From: Larkinella rosea
GTDB taxonomy: Bacteria; Bacteroidota; Bacteroidia; Cytophagales; Spirosomataceae
Length of the DNA stretch: 64,000 nt
NCBI RefSeq assembly: GCF_003858635.1
Contig: NZ_RQJO01000016.1
Location: 248,001-312,000 of the forward strand
Reading direction: 5' to 3'
Shown here: positions 29,691 through 59,000 of the stretch, piece after piece
How positions within the stretch are numbered: the stretch's first letter is position 1
How the letters are laid out: every line of letters begins with the position of its first letter
Notes under the pieces: model-generated
The model's input: the letters and a program-made list of their open reading frames with translations, nothing else
Database searches by the model: none
Told to the model about the DNA's origin: nothing
Program-made: the position numbers and the translations under genes

Positions 29691-30324
29691 TGGACAATTA
29701 TCTATTGAGGCTGTAAACGGATTTATTCGCACCAAAGGTAACGGGCCTTATCACAGAAAAGCGTGCAGGTTTTAATCAATGGTTGACAATTTTAATCCCA
29801 TTACTGACAACTTTGCTCCATAAAAAATGAATATGGATCAGGATTTTGAATGAATGGGTTCTTGTGTTCCCTTAAATCCGTATACGTGTTTTGTAGTACC
29901 CTGAACAAGCCTTACATAAATGATGACCAACTATTTTGATTTTATATCGTCTACTGGGTTACTTTCTTGATGAATTCTTGAACGAACATACTGCCCCAGA
30001 GCAGCCGCTTATTAAGTTACAAAAAGGGTAAGGTCAAAAAGGGATTAGATACTGAACTCTCTATTGTAAAATAGTAAATGGTGGTATTGATTACAGGATT
30101 ACAGATATCCTACTAATACTAAGTGAACCAAGTTATGCCTCAATTAAAGCGGATTCATTTGATCCAATCCTGCGAACGGTGGTGAAACCACCATGGAATT
30201 AGCCACGAGTGTTTTTGAGAATAAATAATGAAAATAAGAGCAAGTTAACAGGGAATATGCGTGGGATAAGGGTTAGGTTCTAAAACAAACTCGATACTCT
30301 TTTCAAACGTAGGCCGTATTCACG
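29691..30324. other. AT-rich intergenic region, no gene found
   Basis: 634 bp between the permease start and the serine-hydrolase stop, both on the minus strand. A small hairpin (GGTGGT-gaa-ACCACC near 30178) is the only symmetry noted. No coding frame or known element was recognised. Confidence 0.45.
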
Positions 30325-36228: not shown

Positions 36229-36393
36229 TGGTTAATCTGCCATTTTCGATAAGAAACCGTAGTGTAGGATAAAAGGCTCGTGTGATCCGGATGGTAAAGC
36301 GGACCGGTCTATTTGATTGGTTTTGATTATTATTGGTTCAATGGGGCCAAACAGTTTAGATCATACCCTTTTAATGTTGTGGTCTTTTCTCAT

Positions 36394-36434
36394 TTTGACT
36401 ACAAATCCCCTCAATTAGACTACAGATAATGACT
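36394..36434 (+). promoter_or_regulatory. Two 21-bp-spaced GACTACA direct repeats upstream of the SDR gene
   Basis: GACTACA occurs at 36397 and again at 36418, a period of exactly 21 bp, about 60-80 bp before the SDR start. Direct repeats at this spacing fit binding by an AraC-type dimer, and two AraC genes follow downstream. A possible -7 box, GACCTTTG, ends at 36452. Its offset from the repeats differs from that at the HTCS-region sites. Confidence 0.4.
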
Positions 36435-40518: not shown

Positions 40519-41276
40519 TTTGCGAATCGGGTCCGATGCCCTTTCTCCCCTTTCCGATGAAAGAAAACCGACAGTCCAGCAAAACTTCACGGAACTGTCG
40601 GTTCATTTCCATTTATTCGAGTTCAATCAGAAAGCGGATTTCACCGCTTGAGCATCTCAGGGTTTAAGCACCTTCAGAGTAACGGATTGTTGACCGCTGC
40701 TAACCCGCAGCACCAGCAGACCCGAAGCCACAGAACCCACACTCAGCGTCTGGCGCTCCACCGCACCCGCCTGCTCGATCTGACACTCCTTCACCCGCCG
40801 ACCACTCAGATCCGTCAGCTGTAGGCCTAGCGGCTGTCCTTCCACGCCCCGCACCTCAACGACCAGCTGATCACGGATTGGATTGCCCAGCACCGTCACC
40901 TGAAGCGGTGAACCGGTTTCGGCCGATAGCCGTGCCGGGGCACATTGATACGCCCTGGGCGAGCCTTTCAACTCGTAGGTACTGCCGAGCACCCGAGCCC
41001 GGACGACTGTCCCGTTGGTCACACTCCCCGGCGGGCTGAAATTGTAGGCATGTGATCCGTTGCCTTTTCCGGCGTCTTTCAAATCGGGGCGGTAAATATT
41101 GGCCACGGTACTGCCCAATACCGTTCCCGGACCATCCAGATAAAATTCGACCGTCAGTGGCGTGTTGGGCTTTTTGCGATCCCACACCCATCCGCGGATA
41201 CCGCCACAATCCAGTTTATCCAGATAGCCCTCAAAATCCCCGGTGACGGTGGTGGTGGAGGCCGGGTTGACCGTCA
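40445..41276. repeat. 832-bp near-identical direct repeat, copy A
   Basis: This stretch equals 50129-50960 at a constant offset of 9684 with only about six or seven substitutions noticed. It covers the downstream noncoding 210 bp, the terminator, the T9SS sorting domain and the last extracellular domain of the 1309-residue surface protein. Identity falls sharply beyond 41276. Recent duplication or gene conversion is the natural explanation. Confidence 0.9.
40561..40603 (-). terminator. Intrinsic terminator of the 1309-aa surface protein gene
   Basis: On the minus strand AACCGACAGT pairs perfectly with ACTGTCGGTT (40566-40575 with 40594-40603), followed by TTTTCTTT. It lies about 55 bp beyond the stop codon. 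The duplicated copy at 50244 keeps it with compensating differences. Confidence 0.8.
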
Positions 41277-44200: not shown

Positions 44201-44586
44201 CCCGCGTTAGTAACCGTGCCAACCGTGTAGAAAGCTGTTGTTTGGCCGCTACCAAAGTCCCTGGAGCCGTTTAAGGTCAGCTTACCACCACTGGTAATAC
44301 TCAGTGAGGCTCCGCTCTGTACTTCTACGGAACCAGCCAACGCCGAGACCGTAAGAACGGGCTGTGTAGCGGCACTGGCGGCAATCACGACATTGTCGCT
44401 GGCCGTAGGAATGCCAGCCGGGCTCCAGTTGCTGGCGGTGTTCCAGTTCGTCGTCGTCCCGATCCAGGTTTTTTGCGCCTGCGCGTTCAACCCGGTCAGC
44501 AGCAAAAGCAGGCCCGACAGAAGCCTGCCCAACAAGCGGAAATTGACGTGTCGTGGTTGACGGGCAAATGTGTAGTGTTGTCTCAT
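40657..44586 (-). CDS. Giant T9SS-secreted modular surface protein
   Basis: A 1309-residue secreted protein. The leader includes LLGRLLSGLLLLLTGLNAQA. Modules in order: a start typical of Bacteroidota adhesins (TWIGTTTNWNTASNWSPAGI); at ~140-335 four repeats of about 48 residues (NNPGGVISINRT, NNAAQISIG); at ~490-850 five Ig/PKD-like repeats of ~71 residues (PSSATLSC, STAGTYSVTV); a ~100-residue domain with ADCSTFRGWVWDR and AGKGNGKHA; a putative Ig (He_PIG) domain with AFTDPEGGTLSYELSGLPEG; a second GWVWDR/AGKGNG domain; and a type A sorting signal (NPIRDQLVVEV, LTDLSGRRV) ending LKVLKP. An adhesin or matrix role is likely. A 21-bp-repeat promoter lies ~210 bp upstream, divergent from the HTCS gene at 45031. 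Confidence 0.85.
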   Translation of the reverse strand: MRQHYTFARQPRHVNFRLLGRLLSGLLLLLTGLNAQAQKTWIGTTTNWNTASNWSPAGIPTASDNVVIAASAATQPVLTVSALAGSVEVQSGASLSITSGGKLTLNGSRDFGSGQTTAFYTVGTVTNAGQLVIGNTSAVGRYGLINKGSFSNETGGGIAIDRSTSYGLQNSATTGRQFTNSGHIIIGANTTVGIVGLANAARFDNNPGGVISINRTEWYGLENSYIFNNAAQISIGATVEVGYVGFYNLGSLDNSAGGIITIDRTSKFGMWNTGIVNNAARITIGSIAQAAYWGLYNQTTFNNNPGGVIAIDRTTNLALKNEDNRTIGLSDPSDDIYPYPDRIPQLAGPGIDTYAEFTNKGQIIIGAIEQFGLNGIRNVGNFYNTGCDAYIESYGNVSHWLVRRVNKVNQNFDVYTNFNNSGFIIEYAPCCSGNITYNSGVIRNLNGGYFDVDHNTGLLTTTPGGGPNDGPIVTANPSLTISQGQTTTLTASEALSYRWSTGETTESISVTTPGTYSVTGTVGECSGTTSVVVSERTEAPSVSINPSSATLSCSTPTVSLTANGTGTFRWSTGATTSQISVSTAGTYSVTVTSSDNRTATASVEVSGTTNAPSVSINPSSATLSCISPMVSLTAHGTGSFRWNTGSTNAQISVSTAGTYSVTLTSPGGCTATASVTISGSSEEPVALITPSSATLTCANPSVSLVASGGNTYRWEDNSTSANRTITTAGTYSVTVINGASCSATKSITISGSSEVPVATITPSSATLTCGSPSVSLVASGGTTYRWEDNSTSANRTITTAGTYSVTVTTGGCSASTSVTISGDPTKPPIPNMASSAVIQGAPAVTLTATNCNGIINWNGPGGTSGTGTITVATTTPGSFVYQATCTVSSCTSDPASLTVEVMAPTVIGSFDGFINGADCSTFRGWVWDRNKPNTAISIDILDGAAILATILASEFRQDLLDAGKGNGKHAFFWPIPERLKDGLPHSLSARVTGNSFVLKDSPKTLICQGNLTPESNQPPKPPTPTVLVTPVVAQVGVPFSAMLVAFTDPEGGTLSYELSGLPEGLSLQLPNRIISGTPTQSGIFVLTYQATDPLGASNSVSFPLTVNPASTTTVTGDFEGYLDKLDCGGIRGWVWDRKKPNTPLTVEFYLDGPGTVLGSTVANIYRPDLKDAGKGNGSHAYNFSPPGSVTNGTVVRARVLGSTYELKGSPRAYQCAPARLSAETGSPLQVTVLGNPIRDQLVVEVRGVEGQPLGLQLTDLSGRRVKECQIEQAGAVERQTLSVGSVASGLLVLRVSSGQQSVTLKVLKP
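42115..42985 (-). repeat. Tandem coding repeats (Ig/PKD-like modules)
   Basis: Four clear units of about 213-219 bp, plus a diverged fifth, encode the PSSATLSC...GTYSVTV modules. The two units nearest the C-terminus are very similar at DNA level (both encode YRWEDNSTSANRTITTAGTY), pointing to recent unit duplication and likely copy-number change between strains. Confidence 0.75.
43580..44175 (-). repeat. Degenerate ~48-residue coding repeats
   Basis: Four units encode F-NN-GG-I-IDRT ... N-A-I-IGA patterns with conserved glycine, asparagine and IDRT spacing, as in beta-helical or filamentous adhesin stalks. Divergence between units is high, so they are older than the Ig units. Confidence 0.6.
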
Positions 44587-44770: not shown

Positions 44771-44840
44771 CAAAGGTCGGGTATGAATACCGCATCAGAC
44801 GATAACAAATGGTCCAAATCCGATAAGAGATGTTCCATTT
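44771..44840 (-). promoter_or_regulatory. 21-bp direct-repeat operator and -7 box, surface-protein gene
   Basis: Minus strand: two 21-bp units abut at 44820-44840 and 44799-44819 (15 of 21 matches), cores AAATGGAACA...TTATCG and ATTTGGACCA...TTATCG. Twenty nt further on is GACCTTTG (44778-44771), a -7-like TTTG. The layout equals that at 49178, 53404 and 55975. The start codon is about 185 nt downstream of the -7 box, giving a long leader. Confidence 0.6.
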
Positions 44841-44956
44841 TGCCCAATTGGTCCAAAAATAGCCGGGAACGTGCGGACCATCCGGGGAGAGAAGCAAATT
44901 AACAGGGGGGATCTGCTTATTCGGAAACATTTAGAATCCGCACCGGTTAAAACTAT

Positions 44957-44983
44957 GGTTTACTTGACTCCCATTAGTAAACC
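44957..44983. promoter_or_regulatory. Inverted repeat upstream of HTCS gene
   Basis: GGTTTACT (44957-44964) and AGTAAACC (44976-44983) form a perfect 8-bp inverted repeat with 11-nt spacing, 47 bp before the HTCS start. It is a candidate operator for the HTCS gene. Confidence 0.45.
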
Positions 44984-45030
44984 AATAAATGTTTCTACTT
45001 TAATACGTAAGCCCAACTCTGTCATTCAAA

Positions 45031-48000
45031 TTGCCTGTTCATATACCGTCGTTCGTTCGAATTTTTGTCTTTCTGCTGAGTCTGCTGACCCCATCGGATT
45101 GGCTTTTGGCGCAATCTTTTCGCCTGCCCCAACCCGGAGTGATTACTGATCGCCAGGGATTGCCCCAGGCCTTTGTGCCTTCTATTCTTCAGGATAAACA
45201 GGGCTTCATCTGGGTCGCCACCCGCGATGGACTCTGCCGCTACGATGGGCAACGGTTCAAAGTTTTCCAGCCCGATCCCGACGGGCGACCATCGCTCTCC
45301 TTTGCCGGACTGAATCAAATCGAGCTGGACCACCACGGGAAAATCTGGATCGTTTCTGAACAGGGCGATATCGACCAATTCGATCCCCGAAGCGAAACAT
45401 TTGTCAATCTGTCCCGGCAAGCTGCCTTTCGCCGGCTTACAAAAATTAAAATAGCCTATTCGTTGCGGACCGATCGACAGGATCGGCTTTGGCTGATATC
45501 GCTTGGCGATGGCGTCATTTGTTGGGATCTTAAAAAAAACAAGGGCCAGTGGTTTCGCCACCAGCCTGATCAGCCCGGATCACTTCGTAGTAATTACGTA
45601 ACGGATGTGGTAGAAGCAGCCGATGGGCAAATCTGGCTAGCTACGGCAAAGGGGCTGAATCGGTTCGACGAAGCCACGCGCAGCTTTGTTGACCTGCAAC
45701 ACCAACCCGGAAATCCTCAATCGCTGCCCGAGGATACGGTTTACCGGGTCTATAGCCGGCCAACCGGAGAGATTATGGCCCTATCCCGACGGTATCTGAC
45801 GTTGCTTCAGCCCCGGACGGGCCAGTTACGCTCGTACCGCATGCCCGCCCAGGGAAACCACGTGGATGGTCACAGGATAACCATGGACCGGCAGGGAGCC
45901 GTCTACTTCGACCAGTTTAACACCCTGTTTCGGTTTACCGACCAGCAAGGGGTCCAGGTCTTGGGCCGCTGGAATCAGCTGAACGACGGGTGTAGCAGTT
46001 TGTTCGTCGATTGCACGAATGTATTATGGATCGGTACCGCCGGTTCGGGCATCCGCACCTACAATCTGCAACCCTTGCCTTTCCAGACGCGCCGGTATAG
46101 CCGTAATTTTTACCAGGACCTACTCACGAACGACTCGCTGGGTTTGCCACCCGTTTGGCGGGTGATCAAGGCGACACTGAGTGGCCTGAGCAGCTATAAT
46201 TTTCGCTCCGCCTTCGATTCTTCGGGCCGGTTCTGGTTTAATGTGGGCACGTCGGATCTCTACCGCCTGGATCGTAAAACCCGTCAGGCCGAGCGGTTGC
46301 CGCTACCTGTTACCTTTCGCTGGAATGCCCCCGGGTACATTCCCTGTCCGCTGACGACCGACCCCCAGGGGCGCGTTTGGGCGGTTTATGACACCACGGC
46401 GTATTGGTTCGATGAGCTGAAACAACATTGGACGGCTTTCCCATACCCCATTTCCGGTCAAAGCACAAATCCCATTACGGAACTTGTGGTGGATAACCAG
46501 TTTCTCTGGCTGGCCAGCCGGTCAGGTGGACTTTGGCGGATGAACCGCCGGAACGGCCAGCTGCACCAATTTGTCAACCGGCCGGGCGATCGGGCTTCCC
46601 TCAGTAGCAACTCACTCTACAGTATTTCGGCCGACCCCGACGATCCCAATCGCCTATGGATCGGGACCTTTGGCAATGGGCTTTGTCTCTTCGATAAAAA
46701 AACCGGTCGGGTCCTCCGGTTTACCAAATCCAATGGCCTGCCCAACAACGTAGTGTACTCGGTGAAAGCGGATCGGCAGGGGTATCTGTGGATGGGAACC
46801 AATAAAGGACTCTGCCGGATGAACCGCCGGACCTTCAGGACTGAGACCTTTACGCGGGATGACGGCATCATGGCCGATGAGTTCAATAGCTACCACTACG
46901 TCCAGTTTCCGGATGGGAAAATCCTGATGGGCGGACTGGAAGGCTTCACCAGGTTTGATCCCCGGCAGATCGGTCAGGATGCATTTGAACCCGTCGTTGA
47001 GCTGACCGAACTGCAAATCAACAACCAGATCATTCAGCCGGATATTCCGGGAATGGTTGATCCCGATACCGCTTCTGCCGCAAACCGATCGATACTCGGT
47101 ACGTTACCCATACAGGCCACGAATCAACTTACGTTGGCCTATAATCAGAACTACCTCACGGTTCAGTTTGCCGCCCTGCAATTCAATCAGCCGGGCAAAA
47201 ACCGGTATCGCTACCGGTTAAAAGGACTGGAAACCGACTGGAAACAGGTTGACAGACCCGAAGCCATTTATACCAACCTGCCCGCGGGCGATTACGTATT
47301 GTTGCTGAATGCGTCCAACACTTCGGGTCGGTGGAGTCGCCATGTTCGTATGCTGGCTATTACGATTTTGCCACCGTTCTGGGAAACCTGGTGGGCTTTT
47401 GGTCTGTATTTTCTACTGGGTCTGGGCGTTGTCCTGGGCCTGCTGCAAATCTACCTGAATCGGCTGCGATTAAATCAGGCTATTGAACTGCGGCAGAAGG
47501 AATCCGAACAGCTGCGGGCCGTCGATGCGATTAAAACCAACTTCTTTACTAACATCACCCACGAGTTTCGCACGCCGTTGACGCTGATCCTGGGGCCGAC
47601 CGAACAGCTGATGAGCCAAGAAACGGAGCCTAAAAACCGTCGACGTTTATTGCAAACCATTGAACAGAATGCCCATCAACTCTTACGGCTGATCAATCAA
47701 CTCCTGGATCTATCCAAGCTGGAAGCGAGTGTCATGTCCATTCACGAGTCCAGAGGGAACCTGACGGAATTCATCCGGCACTGGTTGCAACCCCTTCGTG
47801 ATCAGGCCACGAGCCAGGGATTGAGCCTGGTATTCCGTTCTGAAGTCACGGGAGAGTATTGGTTCGATGCCGAAAAGCTCGAACGCATTGTCTATAATCT
47901 GACGGCCAACGCCCTGAAATTTACGAAAAACGGTTCCATTCAGGTGTCGTTAGAAACCGCTTCGGGGCATATCCGACTAACTGTTGCCGATACAGGCATG

Positions 48001-49119
48001 GGCATTTCAGCCGAGCATCTTCCTCATATTTTCGACCGCTTTTATCAAGTCGGGCCGCAATCGGTCGGGCCGCGATCGGTTGGTGATGCGCGGTTCCCCG
48101 CTGGGACAGGCCGACCGGGCTCGGTTGATCAGTCCAATCCGGCCACGCCCCCGGGCACGGGAATCGGTCTGGCGCTCGTTCATGAATTGGTACAATTGCA
48201 GGGCGGGCAAATTTCCGTCGAGAGCCTGGTAGACCAGGGCACCACGTTTGTGGTTGAGTTACCTTACCGACAGGCAGATTCGGTAGCCGTTATGCCGGAA
48301 GTGGTTATCCCGGCGAGCCGGGAAGTCACCACTCCGGTCTGGACTGCTTTAGACGAATCCAATGAATCCCGGGTGCTGATCGTGGAAGATAATGACGAAC
48401 TGGCTCAGTTTATTGCCAACAGCCTGCCCCTGCACTACCGCATTCGCAAAGCCGTCAACGGACTCGATGGGCTGGAGCAAGCCCTGGAGTACCTGCCGGA
48501 CCTGATTATATCGGATGTGATGATGCCGGGGATGGATGGTTTTACCCTCTGCGACCGGCTGAAAACCGACCTGCGGACCAGTCATATCCCGGTTATTCTG
48601 CTGACGGCCAAAGCCTCCGTCGACAGTCGGATCGAGGGCTTGTCACAGGGGGCGGATGATTACCTGACCAAACCGTTTCAGGTGTCCGAACTCCAGCTTC
48701 GGGTGCGCAACCAGCTGGTAAGCAAACAACGGCAGCGTGAGTGGGTGCGGGCCAGTCTGGCCAATCCAAATCCGTCGGATTCCCGTCCGGCCACAGAGCC
48801 GGCAGATCCTTTTCTGAACCGGTTGTATGAGTTGCTGGAATCGAATCTGAGTGACCCCCGGTTTGGCATTGAGCAGATGATGCTGGAACTGGGCCTGAGC
48901 CGAACCAGCCTGTTTCGGAAGGTAAAAGCGTTGACCGATCTGTCGGCGAATGATCTGTTGCGAAATTACCGGCTCAAACGGGCCGCCCAACTATTGCGAA
49001 CCGGGCAGAGTGTCAATCAAACAGCCTATGAAGTTGGTTTTGAGAGTCCCGCTTACTTCAGCAAATGTTTCCGGGAACTCTATCAGCTTACCCCCAGCGA
49101 ATTTGCCGCACAGCCCTAA
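45031..49119 (+). CDS. Hybrid two-component system regulator (HTCS), copy 1
   Basis: A 1362-residue one-protein sensor-regulator. After a signal sequence (IFVFLLSLLTPSDWLLAQS) come two-component propeller repeats forming a periplasmic sensor (VITDRQGLPQAFVPSILQDK, GFIWVATRDGLCRYDG, LWIGTFGNGLCLFDKKTGRV), a Y_Y_Y domain, and one membrane helix near 786-806. The kinase has its histidine in NITHEFRTPLTLI (H844), then an ATP-binding domain (GTGIGLALVHELV). A receiver domain follows (DLIISDVMMPGMDG, D1162), and last an AraC-type double helix-turn-helix ending LYQLTPSEFAAQP. No ATG is suitable, so the TTG at 45031 is the start. It is divergent from the surface-protein gene. Its DNA-binding part is a good candidate to bind the 21-bp repeats around it. 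Confidence 0.93.
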   Translation: MPVHIPSFVRIFVFLLSLLTPSDWLLAQSFRLPQPGVITDRQGLPQAFVPSILQDKQGFIWVATRDGLCRYDGQRFKVFQPDPDGRPSLSFAGLNQIELDHHGKIWIVSEQGDIDQFDPRSETFVNLSRQAAFRRLTKIKIAYSLRTDRQDRLWLISLGDGVICWDLKKNKGQWFRHQPDQPGSLRSNYVTDVVEAADGQIWLATAKGLNRFDEATRSFVDLQHQPGNPQSLPEDTVYRVYSRPTGEIMALSRRYLTLLQPRTGQLRSYRMPAQGNHVDGHRITMDRQGAVYFDQFNTLFRFTDQQGVQVLGRWNQLNDGCSSLFVDCTNVLWIGTAGSGIRTYNLQPLPFQTRRYSRNFYQDLLTNDSLGLPPVWRVIKATLSGLSSYNFRSAFDSSGRFWFNVGTSDLYRLDRKTRQAERLPLPVTFRWNAPGYIPCPLTTDPQGRVWAVYDTTAYWFDELKQHWTAFPYPISGQSTNPITELVVDNQFLWLASRSGGLWRMNRRNGQLHQFVNRPGDRASLSSNSLYSISADPDDPNRLWIGTFGNGLCLFDKKTGRVLRFTKSNGLPNNVVYSVKADRQGYLWMGTNKGLCRMNRRTFRTETFTRDDGIMADEFNSYHYVQFPDGKILMGGLEGFTRFDPRQIGQDAFEPVVELTELQINNQIIQPDIPGMVDPDTASAANRSILGTLPIQATNQLTLAYNQNYLTVQFAALQFNQPGKNRYRYRLKGLETDWKQVDRPEAIYTNLPAGDYVLLLNASNTSGRWSRHVRMLAITILPPFWETWWAFGLYFLLGLGVVLGLLQIYLNRLRLNQAIELRQKESEQLRAVDAIKTNFFTNITHEFRTPLTLILGPTEQLMSQETEPKNRRRLLQTIEQNAHQLLRLINQLLDLSKLEASVMSIHESRGNLTEFIRHWLQPLRDQATSQGLSLVFRSEVTGEYWFDAEKLERIVYNLTANALKFTKNGSIQVSLETASGHIRLTVADTGMGISAEHLPHIFDRFYQVGPQSVGPRSVGDARFPAGTGRPGSVDQSNPATPPGTGIGLALVHELVQLQGGQISVESLVDQGTTFVVELPYRQADSVAVMPEVVIPASREVTTPVWTALDESNESRVLIVEDNDELAQFIANSLPLHYRIRKAVNGLDGLEQALEYLPDLIISDVMMPGMDGFTLCDRLKTDLRTSHIPVILLTAKASVDSRIEGLSQGADDYLTKPFQVSELQLRVRNQLVSKQRQREWVRASLANPNPSDSRPATEPADPFLNRLYELLESNLSDPRFGIEQMMLELGLSRTSLFRKVKALTDLSANDLLRNYRLKRAAQLLRTGQSVNQTAYEVGFESPAYFSKCFRELYQLTPSEFAAQP

Positions 49120-49177
49120 TCATCTTTCCCGCCTATTTTAGCCCTGTAACTACCACCCATTTGCCACTTTTCATCGC

Positions 49178-49246
49178 AATTGGAACAGGCGTTATGTTAT
49201 TTGGAACAGGCGTTATCGTACGTTTCTGTTTCTTCCCCTAGGTTTG
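49178..49246 (+). promoter_or_regulatory. 21-bp direct-repeat operator and -7 box, small-protein gene
   Basis: Two 21-bp units abut at 49178-49198 and 49199-49219 and match at 18 of 21 positions; both contain TTGGAACAGGCGTTAT. After 19 nt comes TAGGTTTG (49239-49246), an exact TAnnTTTG -7 element followed by TGA. The start codon at 49279 is 32 bp further. This is the best-preserved of the four sites. Confidence 0.75.
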
Positions 49247-49278
49247 TGACCGACTCTCTACCCTAACTTTCTACTGCC

Positions 49279-49530
49279 ATGACCCTTCATTTTACCCTTC
49301 AGGCTTCCGATCTTCCCTGTGTTTGTAGTGCAGAATTTGAAACACTCATGGACGTATTGAATAGCTTTATTTCCATTGGCAACGTTCTGGTATCCGCTTT
49401 CCTGATGGATGATGATGGCACTCGCATTGACTTACCCGTAAAGGCTTTTGATGGTTTACCCATAGCCGGTTGCATGCAAAATTTGACAATCAACTATCAA
49501 TACCTGCTCAATACGAAAAGCCGGGCCTAG
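49279..49530 (+). CDS. Small protein of unknown function (83 aa)
   Basis: An 83-residue protein beginning MTLHFTLQASDLPCVCSAEF with an ATG placed 32 bp after a strong promoter-like element. It has no signal peptide, no membrane segment, three cysteines (two in CVC) and an acidic DDDG turn. I do not recognise the family. The next gene, 59 bp downstream, is an internally deleted cysteine-synthase gene; the two look co-transcribed. Promoter structure argues that this is a real gene. Confidence 0.55.
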   Translation: MTLHFTLQASDLPCVCSAEFETLMDVLNSFISIGNVLVSAFLMDDDGTRIDLPVKAFDGLPIAGCMQNLTINYQYLLNTKSRA

Positions 49531-49589
49531 GAGGTCCGTTTACCTGTCCAATTTTTTACGTTGTCCCGTCCAAATAAATCTCCCCTCAC

Positions 49590-49958
49590 ATGATTTTAGC
49601 ACCAGAAACAACCCTGACAGCCGATGTCGAGGATAAGCTAGAACAACTTTGGAAGTTGGTTGGCAACACGCCCATGCTGGAATTATACTATACGGATCAG
49701 GGACAGCCCCGTTCACTTTACGTAACATGTGAGCATTACAACCTGACCGGCAGCATGAAAGACCGCATCAAGTTACAACGGAAAATGGGTCCCAAAGCCC
49801 GGGTGGTAACTGTTTTGTGTGACAGCCATAAAAAATACCTGAGCACGGACCCGGTTCGGCAGGAACCGATCAAACCGGGCTATGTCGCCCCCGGTATTGA
49901 GTTCACGAAATATCGGTCTATCAGCTGTTTATCGGTTAGCCTGTCCAGTGAGCTTTAA
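49590..49958 (+). pseudogene. Internally deleted cysteine-synthase-family gene
   Basis: The 122-residue frame joins the two ends of a PLP-dependent cysteine-synthase-like protein. Residues 1-60 give the N-terminus with LWKLVGNTPMLEL and the PLP lysine segment NLTGSMKDR (K57). Residues ~61-115 give the extreme C-terminus (KLQRKMGPKARVVTVLCDSH, then KKYLST). Around 200 residues of the core, including the phosphate-binding GNTG loop, are missing at about 49770, yet the frame is kept. A normal member has roughly 320-340 residues. It cannot be a working synthase. It could be a decaying gene or a short protein with another role, as it lies behind the 21-bp operator. Confidence 0.75.
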
Positions 49959-50128
49959 GGGTTGTTCCATTGATCGATAGTATTCCGCACCATACTAGGC
50001 CGATCGGCGAAGCTTACCCATAAGATTCCTTACCCGATTATAATCAGCACTTCCATCTGATTTCTATGGACGGCAAACACAGAATTTTAACCTTAAAATT
50101 GGATCCTGTTTAAAGGCATGTAGAGTCT

Positions 50129-50960
50129 TTTTTGAACGGACCCGCTGACCCGAATTGGGCACAATTTCTCTTTTCAGACATAATAGGGTCAAAAAGCTAT
50201 GATTTGCGAATCGGGTCCGATGCCCTTTCTCCCCTTTCCGATGAAAGAAAACCGCCAGTCCAGCAAAACTTCACGGGACTGTCGGTTCATTTCCATTTAT
50301 TCGAGTTCAGTCAGAAAGCGGATTTCACCGCTTGAGCACCTCAGGGTTTAAGCACCTTCAGAGTAACGGATTGTTGACCGCTGCTAACCCGCAGCACCAG
50401 CAGACCCGAAGCCACAGAACCCACACTCAGCGTCTGGCGCTCCACCGCACCCGCCTGCTCGATCTGACACTCCTTCACCCGCCGACCACTCAGATCCGTC
50501 AGCTGTAGGCCTAGCGGCTGTCCTTCCACGCCCCGCACCTCAACGACCAGCTGATCACGGATTGGATTGCCCAGCACCGTCACCTGAAGCGGTGAACCGG
50601 TTTCGGCCGATAGCCGTGCCGGGGCACATTGATACGCCCTGGGCGAGCCTTTCAACTCGTAGGTACTGCCGAGCACCCGAGCCCGGACGACTGTCCCGTT
50701 GGTCACACTCCCCGGCGGGCTGAAATTGTAGGCATGTGATCCGTTGCCTTTTCCGGCGTCTTTCAAATCGGGGCGGTAAATATTGGCCACGGTACTGCCC
50801 AATACCGTTCCCGGACCATCCAGATAAAATTCGACCGTCAGTGGCGTGTTGGGCTTTTTGCGATCCCACACCCAGCCGCGGATGCCGCCACAATCCAGTT
50901 TATCCAGATAGCCCTCAAAATCCCCGGTGACGGTGGTGGTGGAGGCCGGGTTGACCGTCA
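50129..50960. repeat. 832-bp near-identical direct repeat, copy B
   Basis: Counterpart of 40445-41276. Differences noted lie in the terminator stem, two noncoding sites just before the stop, and two codons near 50880-50893. It covers the same downstream noncoding stretch and the same C-terminal domains, here in the leucine-rich-repeat protein gene. Confidence 0.9.
50244..50287 (-). terminator. Intrinsic terminator of the LRR surface protein gene
   Basis: AACCGCCAGTCC (50249-50260) pairs with GGACTGTCGGTT (50276-50287) with one mismatch, and the minus strand continues TTTTCTTT. It is the duplicate of the terminator at 40561; the stem is lengthened by two G-C pairs at the loop and broken by one change. 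Confidence 0.75.
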
Positions 50961-53349
50961 GCGGAAAGCTCACTGAGTTGGTCAGCACCCCATCGCTGGC
51001 CGAGTAAGCCAGCACAAATGTGCCCGCAACGGTGGGGGTTCCCGAGATCAACCGGCTGGTCATGTTAATCGACAAACCGTCGGGCAAACCGCTTAGGGTG
51101 TAAGTCAACGGCTGTCCTTCGGGATCAGTGAAGGCGACCAGGGTACCGGAGAAGGGCACTCCAACCTGAGCAGCTAGAGGAGCGATCAACACGGTAGGCG
51201 AAGGTGGAACCGGGGCTTTATTGCTGGGCGTTCCGGTACCCTGACAGATCAGTGATTTGGGCGAATCTTTCAGAATAAAGCTGCTGCCACTGACGCGGGC
51301 GGAGAGGTTGTGAGCCAGTCCGTCCTTGATCAGATCGGGGATGGCATAGCTGAAGGCGTGTTTGCCGTTGCCCTTGCCCGCCGTTTGCAAATCCTGCCGG
51401 AACACATCGGCTAGAAACGACGCGATGACGGTAGGTCCGTCGAGAATATCGACCGAAACCGGAGTATTCACTTTGTTGCGATCCCAGGCCCAGCCCCGAA
51501 ACGTGCTGCAATCCGCCCCATTGACAAAACCGTCGAAGCTGCCGCTGACCAGTGGTGGACTGATGGTGACGGTCGTGCTGCCGGGCGGTGAAGCACAACG
51601 GCCCGTCGTGCAGGTTGCCGAGTAGACGATCGATGTGACTATCGCGGTGGGAACACTGATGACCGAGCCGCTTCCCGTCTGACCATTACTGCCCTTCCAA
51701 TCGACCGTGCCGCCGTCACAGCCCGTGATGTTCGCCGTTACAAAGGGCGTATTTTGCAGGATGGGTAGGGTAGCGGCTACACTGAGTACCGGAGCTGCCG
51801 GGCCGGGGCTGACTGTCAGGTTGAAGGCTGTGGAAGTCAGGCTGCTGACCAAACTACTGACCACCACCACGTAGGAACCTGCACTGGCCGTGGTGGTGGC
51901 GGGTAGGGTGAGCGTAGCCGAGGTCTGCCCACTGACTACTCCGCCATCCTTATACCACTGATAGCCTCGAATATCTCCGATAGCACTGACGGAGACGGCC
52001 ACGGCTGAGCCTGCGCAAACGGTCGAAGAACTGGTCGGCTGCTGGGTGATGGATAGGCAATTGGCCTGAACATCGTCGACTGAGTTGCAACCAGGAGCGT
52101 TGTTCGAGATGGTCACTTCGCCCGGCGGAGAGGCTAAATAGCGGCAGATGGCATCGATAGCGCATTCGCTCAGTTGGGGGTTGTCTTTGATGGTTAAATT
52201 GAGCTCAATGCGGGTTAGACTACTCAGTCCTTTCAGACTGTTCAAAGCAGCGTTGCTCTCTAAAGATAGGTTCCCTGTTACAGTTGTCACCCGGTCGAGT
52301 CCTGCCAGACTGCTCAGTTTGGGATTTCTATCCATTCCTATTCTCCGGAGGGTGGTGAGCTTGCTCAGGGCGGCCAGGCTAACCAGGTTATCGTTTTTAG
52401 TGATATAAAGATCACCCTGGAAATCCACCAGGTTGTCCAGCCCCGTCAGGTTGGTGAGTCCGGGACTGTTGTCGATAGTTATTGAATAGATTACAGAAAC
52501 TGGATCCATATCCATACGGGTCAATTTGCTCAGCGCGCTGAGGCTGGTGAGCCTCTCGTTGCTCGTGATTAACAGGCTTCCTTTGGTGAGAGTGGTAATA
52601 TTATCGAGACCAGTCAGGCTGATGAGCTGAGGATTGTTAACAACACCCAGACCGCCAAGGCTGGTGAGTTTGCTCAGGGCAGTCAGGTTATTGAGAACAT
52701 CATTGCTACTAATGGTCAGGTATTCGGTAACCGTGCTCAGGTTTTCCAGCCCCGTCAGGCTACTGAGCTTCGGATTATAACTAATATCCAGCGACTTAAG
52801 GCTTTTCAACTTTTCCAGGGCGGTCAGGCTATTTAATAAATCATTATTATCAATTCCAAGGTATCCCCCAACAGCCGTGAGGTTGTCCAGCCCCGTTAGA
52901 TTGGTGAGTTGAGGATTGGCTGTGATTCTCGCCACGCCTTCAATGCGAATCAACTTACCCAGGCCCGTCAGGCTCTTGAGTGAAGCATTTCCCAGAATAA
53001 AAAAATCCCCCCCGACGGCCGTGAGGTTGTCCAGCCCGGTCAGGTTGACCAGGCCCGGTGTTTCACCTATACTCAGATACCCTCCGATGCTTTGCAAACC
53101 ACTCAGTGCGCTCAGGCTGCTGACATCATCACCAAAAATGTTTAATGAACCCGGCAAATTGGTGCACCCGGCCGGAAATGCATCGATCTTTTCCTGGGAA
53201 CTTAATACTACATCCCCCGTTGGACACTGAGCGTAGGCCATTGTGAGCAGTCCACAATAAAAAAGCAGGAGCAACAGCAGCCTGCGGCCCCTGACTGATT
53301 GCCTGAACGATTGGGCCGATAAACTGCCTGGAAGTAGAAAAGAGTTCAT
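50341..53349 (-). CDS. T9SS-secreted leucine-rich-repeat surface protein
   Basis: A 1002-residue secreted protein. The start is ATG 53349 (MNSFLLPGSLSAQSFRQSVR, then a leucine-rich signal segment ending AYAQ). Residues ~40-420 are receptor-L/LRR-like repeats (LTGLDNLTAVGGYLGIDNND, SLTALEKLKSLKSLDISYNP). An Ig-like domain follows, then an ADCSTFRGWAWDR/AGKGNGKHA domain, an He_PIG Ig domain, a second GWVWDR/AGKGNG domain and a type A sorting signal. From the first GW-WDR domain on, it matches the 1309-residue protein at 40657, and the last part is almost identical. A binding or adhesion function at the cell surface is likely. A 21-bp-repeat promoter lies 55 bp upstream. Confidence 0.85.
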   Translation of the reverse strand: MNSFLLPGSLSAQSFRQSVRGRRLLLLLLFYCGLLTMAYAQCPTGDVVLSSQEKIDAFPAGCTNLPGSLNIFGDDVSSLSALSGLQSIGGYLSIGETPGLVNLTGLDNLTAVGGDFFILGNASLKSLTGLGKLIRIEGVARITANPQLTNLTGLDNLTAVGGYLGIDNNDLLNSLTALEKLKSLKSLDISYNPKLSSLTGLENLSTVTEYLTISSNDVLNNLTALSKLTSLGGLGVVNNPQLISLTGLDNITTLTKGSLLITSNERLTSLSALSKLTRMDMDPVSVIYSITIDNSPGLTNLTGLDNLVDFQGDLYITKNDNLVSLAALSKLTTLRRIGMDRNPKLSSLAGLDRVTTVTGNLSLESNAALNSLKGLSSLTRIELNLTIKDNPQLSECAIDAICRYLASPPGEVTISNNAPGCNSVDDVQANCLSITQQPTSSSTVCAGSAVAVSVSAIGDIRGYQWYKDGGVVSGQTSATLTLPATTTASAGSYVVVVSSLVSSLTSTAFNLTVSPGPAAPVLSVAATLPILQNTPFVTANITGCDGGTVDWKGSNGQTGSGSVISVPTAIVTSIVYSATCTTGRCASPPGSTTVTISPPLVSGSFDGFVNGADCSTFRGWAWDRNKVNTPVSVDILDGPTVIASFLADVFRQDLQTAGKGNGKHAFSYAIPDLIKDGLAHNLSARVSGSSFILKDSPKSLICQGTGTPSNKAPVPPSPTVLIAPLAAQVGVPFSGTLVAFTDPEGQPLTYTLSGLPDGLSINMTSRLISGTPTVAGTFVLAYSASDGVLTNSVSFPLTVNPASTTTVTGDFEGYLDKLDCGGIRGWVWDRKKPNTPLTVEFYLDGPGTVLGSTVANIYRPDLKDAGKGNGSHAYNFSPPGSVTNGTVVRARVLGSTYELKGSPRAYQCAPARLSAETGSPLQVTVLGNPIRDQLVVEVRGVEGQPLGLQLTDLSGRRVKECQIEQAGAVERQTLSVGSVASGLLVLRVSSGQQSVTLKVLKP

Positions 53350-53375
53350 AAGCGAATGGATTAGGTATGTGTTCA

Positions 53376-53445
53376 CAAATGTGGGCTGAACCGGCCCGAC
53401 AGGACTATAAAAAATGTTCCAAATACTATCAAAAATGGGTCAGCA
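53376..53445 (-). promoter_or_regulatory. 21-bp direct-repeat operator and -7 box, LRR gene
   Basis: Minus strand: units at 53425-53445 and 53404-53424 abut and match at 14 of 21 positions, both ending CATTTTT-N-ATAGT. Twenty nt later is CACATTTG followed by TGA (53383-53376), matching nnTTTG. The start codon is 27 bp further. Geometry is the same as at the other three sites. Confidence 0.65.
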
Positions 53446-53467
53446 GGCCATTAATGAGGAAATTGAC

Positions 53468-55525
53468 TTACGCGGGTTGCGGGATCAGGCCCAACGGCAG
53501 GGCGATTTGCATCCGGGTAAACTGCCCCGGCTCAGAAACCACCGAAAGTTTGCCGCCATGACCTTTCGTCACCAGGTCATAACTGAGCGATAGTCCCAGA
53601 CCGGTTCCTTCGCCGGTCGGCTTGGTCGTGAAAAATGGCTGGAAGACCTTTTCTATCGCGGATTCAGGAATCCCCATGCCGTTATCGTGCACCTCAATGA
53701 TCACCTGATCAGCCTCCTGCCAGGTCCGAAGCCAGACCGTTGGCTGGTAGCTTTCCGTCGTCGGCAGGCGGTTTTTCTTTTCCTGAACGGCATAAAAGGC
53801 GTTGTTATACACGTTCAGCAGTACCCGTCCAATGTCCTGGGGAATCACCATTACCGGCCTTAGCCCCTCCTCGAAATCAGTGTGAATGGTCACGTCAACG
53901 GGATTTTTGTCTTTTGTCCGCATTCCCTGACAGGCCAGCTGGAGGTATTCGTTCGCCAGTGCATTGAGATTGGTCGGCTCCCTGGTACCCGTAGTGGCCC
54001 TGCTGTGCGCCAGCATGCCTTTCACGATTGCATCGGCCCGGCGGCCGTGGTGGGCTATTTTGTTCAGGCTTTGACTGAGGTCTTCCAGGAATGCGCCGGC
54101 CAGTTCCTTTTGAGCTGGGAGAAGCTGCGGGACCATGTCCTCCCGAAACTCGTCAACCAGTTCCGTACCCACCTCGGCGAAATTGTTGACAAAGTTGAGC
54201 GGGTTCTGTATTTCGTGGGCAATACCTGCCGTAAGTTCACCCAGGGAGGCCATTTTTTCCTTTTGAATGAGCTGGTTCTGCGTCGTCTGGAGCTCGCGCA
54301 GCGCCTGCTCGGCTTTGCTACGCTGCTGATCAAGTTCGGTTTTTTGAAGCGTCAGCAACTGATTGCTTCGCCGTTGACGCTGGTTGTTCCGCCAAAGTAA
54401 CCCCGCTACCAGCACCACCACGGCCACCAGGCCCGAGAGCCCGTACAGTCGGATGCGGTTTTGGTACAAAGCCGCTGTTGCCGCCTGTTCCTGCCGACGT
54501 TGCTGTTCCTCAAAGCCCAGGGTGAGGAGTTGCTTGAGTTTTTCCTGACTGAAAAGACTGTCTTTAGCCGCAACGGCTACTTTATAATAGCGCAACGCCT
54601 GGGTGTTATCACGTCCCTCATAGAGCTTTGTAAGGAGTTCACTGGTGGAAAGAATGACATTTAAATAACCGCTTTGCTGCCCGGCTAAGAGGGCCCGGCG
54701 GGCGTTGACAATGCAGGAATCAATCGGCCCCTTTGCCTGGTAGACGGTAGCGATGCGCAAATAGATGTCGGCCAGGATAACCGTTGTGTTACTTTCCCGG
54801 GCCGCCACCAGGCCCCGGCGGTAGTAGGCCAGGGCAGCGGTTGTATCATGACGTTTCAACTGCAAATCGCCCAACTGGTAGAGATTGTGTTCCAGAACGA
54901 TTCGGCCGCCTTGCTGCTCCGACAAGGGGAGGGCCTGACGCAAGTAGTAGTCCGCCGAATCCAACTGGTCGATCTTTAGAAAGGCTTCTCCCAAATTGCC
55001 ATACAGGGTAGCATAACTATGGGCGTCCCGTTGGGAATCGTTCCGATGAACCAGTTCAAAAATACGCTGGGCTTCCTGGAGCAGACGTAACGCCTGTCGA
55101 TGATCCTTCTGATCCTGATAGGGAGCCGCCATGTTGTTAAGTGTTCGGTACGTAGCCGTCAAATCGTGGATGGAGCGGCTAATCTGTAAGGATTGCTGAA
55201 AACTACGGATGGCTTTCGGATAGTCGCCCAGGCTGGCCAGGCTGCTGCCCATTATACTTAGTCCCCGTGCCCGGCCCGGCTTGTCGTCCAGTTCCTGCGC
55301 GAGCTGGTAAGCCTGTTGGGCGAGTCGGTAGGTGGTATCGGGTTTGATGTCTAAATAAAGACGCCCCAACTGGTTCAGCAACCGAACCCGATTGGTGTCG
55401 GCGGGTTGATGGGCCAATTGCCGTTTCAGGCTATCAATCTCGGCGGACTGGGCACAGACCAGCCGGCCGTTTCCCCCAATTAGGAAAACAACAGGCAGCA
55501 GGATGGTGCGGATCAAAAGTTTCAT
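53468..55525 (-). CDS. TPR-domain sensor histidine kinase
   Basis: A 685-residue kinase. A signal sequence ([20 protein letters not shown]) precedes TPR repeats at ~60-340 ([40 protein letters not shown]), one membrane helix (~365-385, [19 protein letters not shown]), a coiled-coil linker, the phosphoacceptor region [17 protein letters not shown] (H437) and an ATPase domain ([35 protein letters not shown]). There is no receiver domain and no separate response regulator in the window. It lies 68 bp after the ABM-like gene and shares its 21-bp-repeat promoter. It may signal to an unlinked regulator or interact with the neighbouring HTCS proteins. Confidence 0.9.
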
Positions 55526-55593
55526 GCGTTTATTACTTGATTAGATACCTGGCCTAAATGTGGAAAATGCGTCGGTTACCGGTTTACCTGACC

Positions 55594-55890
55594 TCAGCTA
55601 ACCTGCGCATTTAGTTCATAATCAGCGGGTACCAGGGGTTGGATACAGTAGTGTTGCAGGTGCCCCAAAAGAGTCTGTAGCAATCGGTTGGCGTCAGCCG
55701 CCTGCCGGTCGGCCTGGGTCTCCCAAATCATCAGCAACATACACTGATTAGTCGCCGAATTGGCCAGCAACTGACCATGCAGAAAGCCCGGCTGTTGACG
55801 CAGGGCGGGTCCGATACTCAACCGAAAGTAGGTAGTAGCATCGCTTAGGGCTTCGGCCCGTAAGCCACCTTCGAGGGTACGTGCAAACAT
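55594..55890 (-). CDS. ABM-like (antibiotic biosynthesis monooxygenase fold) small protein
   Basis: A 98-residue protein beginning MFARTLEGGLRAEALSDATT, with the dimeric alpha-beta barrel pattern of the ABM fold: a helix with YFRLSIGPALRQQPGFLHGQ, a strand NQCMLLMIWETQADRQAADA, and a final helix LLGHLQHYCIQPLV. Such proteins may be small oxygenases or merely ligand-binding. No catalytic residue can be named. It is the first gene of a two-gene unit with the TPR kinase and is preceded by a 21-bp-repeat promoter. Confidence 0.7.
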   Translation of the reverse strand: MFARTLEGGLRAEALSDATTYFRLSIGPALRQQPGFLHGQLLANSATNQCMLLMIWETQADRQAADANRLLQTLLGHLQHYCIQPLVPADYELNAQVS

Positions 55891-55947
55891 AAGAATGACT
55901 GGAATAGAACGATTTGGAGCGTCAAGCCCGGACGGACTTGACGCTCA

Positions 55948-56016
55948 CAAACTTGTTCATTCCAGCCGGGCGGGACCATAATGAATAGGCCAAATACTAT
56001 AAAAAATCGGTCAAAG
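55948..56016 (-). promoter_or_regulatory. 21-bp direct-repeat operator and -7 box, ABM-kinase unit
   Basis: Minus strand: units at 55996-56016 and 55975-55995 abut and match at 15 of 21 positions (CTTTGACCGA...TTATAGT and ATTTGGCCTA...TTATGGT). Nineteen nt later is CAAGTTTG followed by TGA (55955-55948). The start codon at 55890 is 58 bp on. The site lies between the HTCS stop and the ABM start. Confidence 0.65.
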
Positions 56017-56059: not shown

Positions 56060-59000
56060 TCAGCCCTGCGCGATAAACTCACGGGGAGTTAGCTGGTAGA
56101 GTTCCCGAAAGCATTTTGAAAAATAGGATGGGCTGTCGAAGCCAACCCGGTAAGCCGTCTCGGTAATGGCATGGCCTTCGCGCAGGAGTTGGGCGGCTCG
56201 TTTCAGTCGGTAGTTGCGAACTAATTCATTGACCGATAGATCCGCTAAGGATTTGACTTTTCGAAAAAGACTGGAACGGCTCATGCCCAGCGCCGTGACC
56301 AGACTTTCCACGTTAAACATCGGGTCGTCTAAATGGGATTCGATCAATGCGTAGAGTTGGTCCAGAAACGGGTCTATAGGGGGACTAACTGACGGAGTTG
56401 CATTCGTTCCGGGTTGGGTCAGACTGGTCCGCACCCAGTCGCGCTGCCGTCGTTTGCTGTCAAGTTGGTTACGAACCCGCAGGTGAAGCTCCCGCACCTG
56501 GAAGGGTTTAGTCAGGTAATCGTCGGCTCCCTGCGAAAGCCCTTCCAGCCGGTTTTCGGTCGAGGTTTTGGCGGTGAGCAGAATCACCGGAATGTGGCTG
56601 GTGCGAAGGTCGGTTTTCAGGTGGCCACACAGCGCAAAACCATCCATCCGGGGCATAAGCACATCGGAAATGATCAGGTCGGGCTGGTATTCCTGCGCCT
56701 GCTCCAATCCATCACGCCCATCAACCGCCCGGCGAAGACGGTAGGTTGGAGGCAGACTATCAAGGAGGAAGAGGGCTAATTCGTCGTTATCCTCCACGAT
56801 CAGGATTCGCGGACGGTCCGCCGATGCGGCTTCGTCATCCGCCTTCCCCCATTGTTCCTCATGGATACCGTTCAGGTTAGCTACCTCGCCGGCCGAAGCG
56901 GATTCAGCTACGCGACGAAAGGGTAAATCCACCACAAAAGTGGTCCCCTGATTGACTACACTGGTCACCGAAATTCGCCCACCCTGTAAGTTGACCAGAT
57001 CCTTTACCAGCGCCAGCCCGATCCCCGTCCCCTGCCGGAGCTTGGAAGGGGTTCCCTTTTCACTGGCCGACGGCTTTACCTGATAAAACCGGTCAAAAAT
57101 GTGCGGTAGCTGTTCCGGTGATATACCTGAGCCAGTGTCGGAAATCGTTAGGCGTATCCCCTCAGGTGCGGGCATCAGCGAAAGGTGGATGCTGCCCGCT
57201 GTTGTAAATTTCAGGGCGTTGGCCGTCAGGTTGGAAACGATGCGTTCCAGTTTTTCGGCATCAAACCAGTGGGTGCCCTCCACCCCGGAGGTAAAGGTAA
57301 GGGTGAGTCCCTGCGAGGTAGCCTGCTCCGCCAACGGTTGTAGCCAGTAAGCGATGCTTTCAGACAGTGCACCGGGCGACTCATGAACTGGCATGACACT
57401 CGCTTCCAGCTTCGAAAGATCCAGCAACTGGTTAATGAGTCGCAACAACTGATGGGCGTTCTGTTCGATGGTTGTCAGTCGGCGGTAATTTTTCGGTTCC
57501 GGATTCTCACTGACCATTTGCTCGGTTGGCCCCAGAATCAGCGTCAACGGCGTTCGGAACTCGTGGGTAATGTTGGCGAAGAAGTTCGACTTCATCTGGT
57601 TGATATCCCTGAGTTGTCTGGCTTCCTGCTGACCGAGCGCAATTTCGCGCTGCTGTAAGGCGAGCGACTGCTTCAGTCTCACCCGGTTGGCATACACGCG
57701 TACGCCCACCAAGCCCAACCCAATGGCTCCTAAAGCGTACAACAGATAAGCCCACCAGGTCGACCAGAATGGCGGATGGATGATTACCGTCAGTTTACGC
57801 ATGTACCGGCTCCAGTGCCCCGACGTATTCGACGCATTGAGCCATAGGATGTAATGACCCGGTGGCAGGGCGGTGTAAACCGCAATGGGTCGTTTTGTTG
57901 CCGTCCATTGGTCATCAAGACCTTCCAGTCGGTAGCGGTATGTGTTTTTGGTTGGCCGGTTAAATTGCATGACGGCGAACTCAGCTGTCAGGTAGTTCTG
58001 ATCGTGGGCCAATGCCAGTTCCTGAGCCGCCGGAATGGATACGTATTCCCCGTTGGCATCCGACCATTTTGTGGGTAGCGAATCAACCGGCTGGTTATTC
58101 ACCAGTAAGGATGTCAACTCGACGGTTGGTTCATAGGCATCCTCGGTAAGGCGGATTGGATCAAAGCTGGTGATCCCCTCGAGTCCACCCATCACGATGC
58201 GTTCGCCTGAAGGAGCAGCCTGTGCGACCGGGATGGCATTCCCCAAACTCACTGCTCCTGGCAAATATAACCAGTGAAAGCGGTTGAACTCATCGGCCAG
58301 CAAGCCATCGTCCCGCGTAAATGTTCTGGTTTTGAAAGTTCGAAGGTCCAGTTGACAAATGCCTTTGTTGGTCCCCATCCACAGCGATCCGTGCCGGTCG
58401 GGAATCACCGAATAAATCACGTTATTCGGCAATCCATCCCGGTCGGTGAACCGCCGAAACCGGCCGGTTCGTTTGTCAAACGCACACAGTCCACCACCAA
58501 AGGTACCCAGCCAGAGCCGGTGCGGTACCTTCGGATCCTGCGACAAGCAAAATAAGGCATTGTTACTCAGCGATTGCGGGTCTTGAGGTTGATTGGCGTA
58601 CTGCTGCAGCTGACCGGATTTTCGATCCAGCCGCCAAAGCCCTTTCTGGTCGGTGGCCAGCCAAAAGGCTTCTTCATCAATGGTAAATACCAGCACCACA
58701 CCAATTTGTGCCGCCGGAATTCGGTAAGGCCCGGTTTGCCAGCGATGCTGTCGTTCCTCGTAGAACCAGGCTACCGAATCGTGTATTGCCCAAATCTGCC
58801 CATGCGGATCGGTCGCCAACGGACACGGTTTATCGCCGAACTCCCGGTTTTCAAATGGCTGGGGCAAGGGGCGGTGTTCAACCCGCTTTGTTTTTAGATC
58901 CACCCGCTGAATCTGGGAGGAGCCCGTATTGTACCAAAAATCACCTTTATTACCAACCGTATAGCGAAAGTCATAACTGCTTTTCCGTATAGTCAATGGC

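Follow-up and report, generated by a model that had tools for sequence, protein, structure and literature searches.

The 64,000-nt stretch of Larkinella rosea DNA analyzed here, called the window (assembly GCF_003858635.1, contig NZ_RQJO01000016.1, positions 248,001 to 312,000), carries genes for two large membrane regulators, the hybrid two-component system proteins (HTCSs) HTCS-A and HTCS-B, and four pairs of abutting 21-bp direct repeats that lie ahead of neighboring genes (Table 1). HTCS-A unites a propeller sensor, a histidine kinase, a receiver and an AraC-type helix-turn-helix (HTH) region in one protein, the architecture that defines the group, and HTCS-B was assigned by its similarity to HTCS-A. 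HTCSs are numerous in Bacteroidota; to our knowledge, few of them have known operators. In the following, a pair of repeats is called a dimer and each 21-bp copy a unit.

Table 1. Genes, candidate operators and promoter boxes of the window, followed by class A dimers elsewhere in the genome
Feature	Position	Strand	Observation
HTCS-A	45031..49119	+	Pfam: Reg_prop, Y_Y_Y, HisKA, HATPase_c, Response_reg, HTH_18
HTCS-B	56060..60145	-	53% identical to HTCS-A over 1372 aligned positions
Candidate class A operator	49178..49219	+	distal unit 49178-49198, proximal unit 49199-49219
-7 box TAGGTTTG	49239..49246	+	begins 19 nt past the proximal unit of 49178
83-aa protein	49279..49530	+	multi-copy family; first gene after the putative class A promoter 49178
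Cysteine-synthase-like (PALP) remnant	49590..49958	+	segments matching PALP residues 1-62 and 293-354, side by side in one frame
Candidate class A-like operator	44799..44840	-	distal unit 44820-44840, proximal unit 44799-44819; precedes surface protein A
Weak -7 box GACCTTTG	44771..44778	-	
Surface protein A	40657..44586	-	He_PIG; type IX secretion system (T9SS) sorting domain
Candidate class B operator	53404..53445	-	distal unit 53425-53445, proximal unit 53404-53424; precedes surface protein B
-7 box CACATTTG	53376..53383	-	
Surface protein B	50341..53349	-	Receptor L domain, He_PIG, Ig; T9SS sorting domain (scanned as 50341-53376)
Candidate class B operator	55975..56016	-	distal unit 55996-56016, proximal unit 55975-55995; directly after the HTCS-B stop
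-7 box CAAGTTTG	55948..55955	-	
98-aa protein	55594..55890	-	first gene after the putative 55975 promoter; no Pfam match
TPR histidine kinase	53468..55525	-	second gene after the putative 55975 promoter
Class A dimer	L009		precedes a cytochrome c gene
Class A dimer	L011		precedes a cysteine-synthase-like PALP gene
Class A dimer	L012		precedes an nSTAND ATPase operon
Class A dimers (two)	L010		divergent pair beside a second HTCS-A gene

Paired repeats at a fixed distance from a putative promoter box

Re-reading of the sequence confirmed all four dimers that a sequence-only reading of the window had proposed, with abutting units, a period of 21 bp and 18 (49178), 15 (44799), 14 (53404) and 15 (55975) of 21 positions matching within the pair. 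The TTTG described with them begins 23 nt (49178, 55975) or 24 nt (44799, 53404) past the proximal unit and is directly followed by TGA at 49178, 53404 and 55975. The spacer of the proposed core had been miscounted as six nucleotides and is five (TTTGGAAC-N5-TTATAGT); exact TTTGGAAC occurs in only two of the eight units, and a common core holds only as a composite of two site classes.

The window was scanned on both strands without a motif, requiring a period of 21, at least 14 of 21 matches and TTTG 23 or 24 nt further on. This returned six places, namely the four dimers, 29779(+) and 36383(+). Zero to two places were found at each of 33 other periods (12 to 45), and 40 first-order Markov copies of the window gave a mean of 0.05 and a maximum of 1. 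Repeat identity alone was rejected as evidence: it is weak by itself, because at least 14 of 21 matches at period 21 yields 32 counts in the window (every place counted on both strands) once the TTTG condition is dropped. The additional dimer at 36383-36424 (+) (TCATTTTGACTACAAAT.. / TCAATTAGACTACAGAT..) has TTTG at the same spacing and precedes a short-chain dehydrogenase (SDR) gene whose neighbor (37453-38373) encodes a free AraC regulator. Ordinary AraC proteins may perhaps use this grammar too. The pair at 29779-29820 (+), with TTTG at the right distance, has no obvious same-strand gene close downstream and may be due to chance.

Primary-sigma promoters of Bacteroidota carry TAnnTTTG at -7 and TTTG at -33 (PMC7366714). 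Within the window the -7 consensus is matched by TAGGTTTG at 49178, whereas the other three sites have TTTG but no TA, with CAnn or GAnn before TTTG at the class B sites and at 44799. Because of the box at 53376..53383, which has CACCTTTG at the corresponding place in L. terrae, the start of surface gene B is suggested to be the ATG at 53349 rather than the GTG at 53376.

The whole genome (8.17 Mb) contains ten exact matches to the single-unit pattern. Three 21-bp tandems beyond the window are among them; in two of these both units match exactly, and in the third an exact unit is joined to a one-mismatch partner. Searched with at most three mismatches, the dimer pattern matched eight times, and the reversed control gave no match. 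These eight are three of the four window dimers and five elsewhere; 53404 was missed because its distal unit is too different. A check for dimers lacking the TTTG spacing came out in favor of the sites: TAGGTTTG begins exactly 19 nt past the proximal unit in four of the five outside dimers, and the fifth has TAGTATTG. A terminator-like hairpin of 11 pairs stands about 100 nt beyond one class A dimer with TAGGTTTG (L010:9255-9433, -), with no evident gene between, possibly marking an HTCS-driven small RNA or a dead promoter.

To extend this analysis across the genus, nine genomes, among them Larkinella sp. C7 (G002), L. humicola (G003) and L. terrae (G004), were scanned for the dimer joined to TAnnTTTG at fixed spacing, with at most two mismatches in all. 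There were 15 matches against none in the control; the box was TAGGTTTG in 14 and TACCTTTG in one. Class A dimers occurred in five of the nine genomes (G000, G002, G003, G004 and G006), the same five whose HTCS-A HTH is at least 81% identical. In G005 and G007 (HTH 72-75% identical), a related TTGGATC/TTGGACC-type dimer follows the stop codon instead, and this type was also found in G025, from another genus (HTH 75%), and in Spirosoma validum, beside an HTCS-A relative. The class A pattern, which is unable to catch the related type in the latter two, was absent from 50 sampled genomes outside the genus. A scan of the genome collection returned 14 stretches, five of them from Larkinella and four from Spirosoma validum, of which two (L071, L075) adjoin an HTCS-A relative. 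No HTCS-A match was present in the stretches of the other five (two from Mariniphaga, one each from Flavobacterium, Prevotellaceae and an Actinomycetes bin), which may be chance or unrelated repeats.

Candidate operators after HTCS stop codons and their covariation with the HTH

The 300 nt after the stop codon were analyzed for 60 full-length HTCS-like genes (open frame of at least 1300 aa) returned by HTH searches. The genus supplied 48 of them (E up to 1e-22), and the remaining 12 came from further genera in the family (E up to 1e-26); further shorter-frame relatives were left out of the period count. Period 21 was the uniquely best self-match in 32 of the 60 (26 of the 48 and 6 of the 12; by batch, 21 of 38 and 11 of 22), where about two genes per period would be expected over 34 periods, and period 22 was best in five. 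The direct repeat about 21 bp apart that marks HTCS operators was found both at the window pairs and after these 32 genes. A subgroup of HTCSs shows a 22-bp period after the stop codon (L036, L037 and L195), with TTGGCACAGGATTAACA or a near copy present twice in L036 and L037.

With two ties added to the 32 unique cases, 34 dimers were registered, including those of both window HTCSs, and TTTG was used neither in choosing nor in registering them. Their letters are diverse (TGGAAC..TTATCG, TGTCCC..GACAG, TGGGAA..GATAG, GCAAC..GATAG and others). TTTG lies 22-24 nt past the pair in 28 of the 32 dimers with enough downstream sequence, at exactly 23 nt in 24 of them; the shuffled control gave a mean of 1.0 and a maximum of 5.

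Comparison of these genes indicates that the dimer letters covary with the adjacent HTH. Over the 34 genes, HTH identity and dimer similarity correlate with r=0.72, a value reached in none of 2000 permutations. The flanks correlate with HTH identity as well (r=0.42), because the set includes orthologs. When only pairs with HTH identity below 90% and flank similarity no higher than 0.45 were considered (460 pairs), r was 0.60, and mean dimer similarity rises from 0.41 to 0.67 with the flanks steady at 0.34-0.35. Partial correlations of helix by box were 0.54 for HTH2 with the second box, 0.33 for HTH1 with the first box and 0.10 for HTH1 with the second, the HTH2-second box pairing being clearer than that of HTH1 with the first box.

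Apparent rules for the first box could be read by eye: helices with SRT go with TGGAnC, SRMS with TGGGAn or TGGTAC, SRMH with TGTTAC, R[KR]T with TG[TC]CCC and SRS[YQ] with GCAAC. Further helices pair SPAYFSK with TTATnG, TPSHF with GACAG and, in one case, NHSYF with CAACAG. L199 (SRRT, TGGCCC) does not follow these rules, nor do HTCS-B itself (SRSS, TGACC/TGGCC) and the distal unit of L035.

Two site classes and a probably dismantled operon

Comparison separates the sites into two classes. The class A unit is NNNTGGAACN5TTATCGT, and class B has the distal unit TGACCnATTTTTnATAGT and the proximal unit TTTGGnnnATTnnTTATnGT. In leave-out scoring with orthologous units remaining in the training sets (bits, distal+proximal), 49178 scored 28.6+34.4 with class A and 6.1+9.8 with class B, 53404 scored 23.6+25.2 with B and -9.1+20.6 with A, and 55975 scored 24.1+14.8 with B and -3.4+15.2 with A, its proximal unit alone not discriminating. 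The 44799 site leans to A (17.1+26.4 against 9.0+21.6) and probably belongs there, since homologous surface genes in three relatives (G003, G004 and G006; 52-54% identical to surface protein A over 724-799 residues) are led by class A dimers.

The class B pattern matched four times in the nine genus genomes, at the two window sites and at two syntenic places in L. terrae, where both sites are kept and the module has the same order (HTCS-B, ABM-like gene, kinase, surface gene); the class is confined to the two genus genomes with HTCS-B. The 49178 site and the small gene after it are kept in four relatives. The sequence-only reading had taken the four promoters for one local HTCS regulon. Their HTCS-type character is supported by the comparison, but a single local regulon was rejected in view of the two site classes and the five class A dimers outside the window.

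A shared regulon, with each of the four sites bound by HTCS-A as well as HTCS-B, appears unlikely. Their HTH domains are 68% identical with nearly identical helices (SRTSLFRKVKAL and SRSSLFRKVKSL), either matrix gives 44799 a fairly good score, and the proximal unit of 55975 scores the same with the two; however, 49178, 53404 and the distal unit of 55975 are clearly separated by the class scores, and the three genus genomes with class A dimers but no HTCS-B lack the class B pattern.

The genes behind the dimers are varied. No Pfam or NCBIfam match was found for the 83-aa protein. Its family of about 85 aa (49279-49530, L142-L171) has a DxxLPxxAFDG-like motif and 2 to 13 matches per genus genome (E <=0.01), and one member (L082) follows an HTCS-type dimer in Spirosoma validum. 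The full-length PALP protein reaches 296 bits against the NCBIfam cysKM cut-off of 344 and stays below the NCBIfam cysteine synthase cut-offs; it is called cysteine-synthase-like here. The 98-aa protein shares 88% identity with a protein of L. terrae whose ABM match is weak (E 6e-4) and falls below Pfam's cut-off. Surface proteins A and B are 76% identical in their C-terminal part (494 aa; best BLAST segment only). The similarity between surface protein A and its relatives is mainly C-terminal, the relatives have a YVTN-type propeller in front, and these proteins look mosaic.

Across the HTCS-A and HTCS-B targets scanned, no susC/susD-like or glycan-degrading direct target of the kind that marks a polysaccharide utilization locus (PUL) was found. 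The Pfam families of these targets or their close homologs are He_PIG/T9SS proteins, PALP, Cytochrom_C, a weak ABM, a TPR-kinase and nSTAND1. At L012, a TonB-dependent-receptor-like gene follows the nSTAND gene, and genes that by eye look like susC/susD lie upstream of the dimer.

Three relatives (G002, G003 and G006) share the order HTCS-A, dimer, 83-aa protein, PALP, cytochrome c. In L. terrae this set lies in two pieces, HTCS-dimer-cytochrome and dimer-small-PALP. No gene of the set accompanies a third dimer (L024). The window genome has at least four pieces: HTCS-A1-dimer-small-PALP remnant; HTCS-A2 accompanied by two dimers and another small gene; dimer-PALP; and dimer-cytochrome. The PALP subfamily (at least 80% identical) is present in exactly the five genomes with class A dimers, and the other four genus genomes have only synthases of at most 38% identity (E up to 1e-20).

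Vestiges of the small gene were searched for after class A sites. In the window genome, a recognizable trace of it lies between promoter and gene in the PALP and cytochrome pieces: scores were 46 against a null maximum of 29 at L001 and 32 against 29 at L003, with 0 of 300 shuffles reaching either. The test was not significant for the L. terrae gaps L017 (61 of 300) and L018 (13 of 300), nor for L002 (182), L060 (124), L061 (98), L067 (128) and L006 (100); L069 was left out. In the HTCS tree, A1 groups beside A2 and the L. terrae protein (98/96), and because of this position the HTCS-A duplication seems older than the split from L. terrae. The best reading of this distribution is that the operon was duplicated and its copies lost complementary genes, each retaining an operator, with the order of loss inferred.

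Proposed regulation by HTCS-A and HTCS-B and its wider meaning

Considering these comparisons, we interpret the pairs as activator sites of HTCS-A and HTCS-B, with a probability of about 0.88. Comparison establishes the site classes, the fixed spacing, conservation, co-occurrence and covariation, and supports the view that the dimers act like HTCS operators set at a constant distance from a -7 box of the Bacteroidota type; we infer binding, activation rather than repression, the attribution of HTH to box and the start sites. A signal would trigger the HTCS phosphorelay and free the AraC-type domain, and two such domains would bind head to tail, one on each 21-bp unit. Within the unit, the TGGAAC-type box would be read by the first HTH and, about one helical turn away, the TTATCG/TATAG-type box by the second. 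With 19-20 nt between the end of the proximal unit and the 8-bp -7 box, the bound protein would lie over the -33 region and recruit polymerase with the primary sigma factor. With TTTG at -7, the pair would span about -32 to -73, a spacing at which the proximal domain would abut polymerase over the -33 element. HTCS-A would drive 49178 (small protein and PALP remnant) and, acting in trans, the PALP, cytochrome c and nSTAND genes located outside the window; 44799 (surface protein A) would probably be a further target. HTCS-B would drive 55975 (ABM-like protein and kinase) and 53404 (surface protein B).

Several points weigh against this interpretation. No unique period-21 repeat follows the stop codon in 28 of the 60 full-length HTCSs, two of which tie, and HTCS-A2 of the window genome (L034) is among them, its dimers lying 460-780 nt beyond; 3 of 15 shorter-frame relatives show period 21 there. 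Single units were rejected as evidence, with 41 matches genome-wide at up to one mismatch against 81 in the control. The 44799 site has the weakest class assignment of the four and a poor box (GACCTTTG), the class B boxes are CAnnTTTG, and orthologous units were retained in the training sets of the class scoring. Gene and dimer counts are likewise not independent because the sets contain orthologs, and neither the Mantel test nor the helix-by-box correlations are adjusted for the tree. HTH2 also correlates with the first box (0.36), so the attribution of helix to box is only partial.

Repression or autoregulation by the HTCSs in place of activation is improbable. Feedback on the HTCS gene is conceivable, and the divergently oriented 44799 site is located some 190 nt upstream of the start codon of HTCS-A. 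A position upstream of the -7 box is the usual place of an activator, and the dimer lies upstream of this box, not over it, both in the window and in 28 of the 32 registered dimers. Bacteroides HTCSs are also described as driving PULs (PMC11253607).

We consider it very improbable that the dimers belong to another regulator, such as a free AraC protein or a sigma/anti-sigma system, with the HTCS genes as mere neighbors. AraC proteins also bind half-sites about 21 bp apart, free AraC genes occur in the window, and the 36383 dimer precedes the SDR gene adjoining one; yet the dimer letters follow the HTH of the adjacent HTCS in the 34 genes, also where flanks are unrelated, and the presence and absence of dimers match those of HTCS-A and HTCS-B. 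Functionless duplication, as chance tandem copies or a mobile repeat, would suit the 18 of 21 identical positions at 49178 and the frequency of period-21 identity in the window and of single near-units in the genome, but is hardly credible given the fixed TTTG spacing, cross-species conservation, covariation and zero control matches for dimers.

The closest known systems include the HTCS regulons of Bacteroides. Predicted HTCS sites of B. thetaiotaomicron are direct repeats averaging 21 bp, and motif groups following HTCS tree clusters are already reported there (Ravcheev et al. 2013, PMC3878776); protein architecture, repeat spacing and the tracking of clusters are alike in both systems. The HTCSs analyzed in that work were picked for their susC/susD neighbors, whereas the targets scanned here comprise T9SS surface proteins and a small protein, PALP and cytochrome c, an ABM-like protein together with a kinase, and the nSTAND operon. 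The portion of that account considered here places the sites neither after the HTCS stop codon nor at a fixed distance from a -7 box (PMC3878776). That the receiver domain holds DNA binding in check was tested by electrophoretic mobility shift assay for two Bacteroides HTCSs (PMC11253607), and PMC12125979 concerns a XylR-type AraC protein, not an HTCS. The primary-sigma promoter (PMC7366714) is matched by TAGGTTTG at 49178 and in 14 of the 15 genus-scan matches; class B and 44799 differ from it before TTTG, and its -33 element would be covered by the proximal unit. The recognition code of the LacI family (Camas et al. 2010, PMC2978694) follows the same idea of pairing a regulator with an operator near its own gene, but in another family; in each 21-bp unit, the AraC-type domain reads with two helices.

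The HTCS work found concerns gut polysaccharide loci. A limited literature search found no paper on this Larkinella regulon, on a recognition code of AraC-type HTCSs, or on operon fission or duplication. New here are the non-polysaccharide targets, the rigid promoter grammar and the scattered operon; the novelty in kind is modest, and the grammar and the paired data set are useful.

Together, our results make it fairly probable that many HTCS genes of the family carry their own cognate operator-promoter after the stop codon (unit, unit, 19 or 20 nt, 8-bp box ending in TTTG), that regulator-operator pairs can be read from genomes and a two-helix AraC-type code decoded from them, and that in Larkinella the operator copies let an operon be duplicated and dismantled into scattered units with shared control kept. 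If the operator-promoter sits after the stop codon in a rigid grammar, such pairs would be readable without experiments, and the position and spacing rule yields candidate pairs from sequence alone for 32 of the 60 full-length HTCSs. Regulator and docking sites change together in relatives, which should help in assigning a regulator to a gene. The rule makes recognition by AraC-type domains testable and points to regulons beyond polysaccharide use, and the broken-up operon, each piece keeping a copy of the operator, illustrates one way in which an operon may give rise to a regulon.

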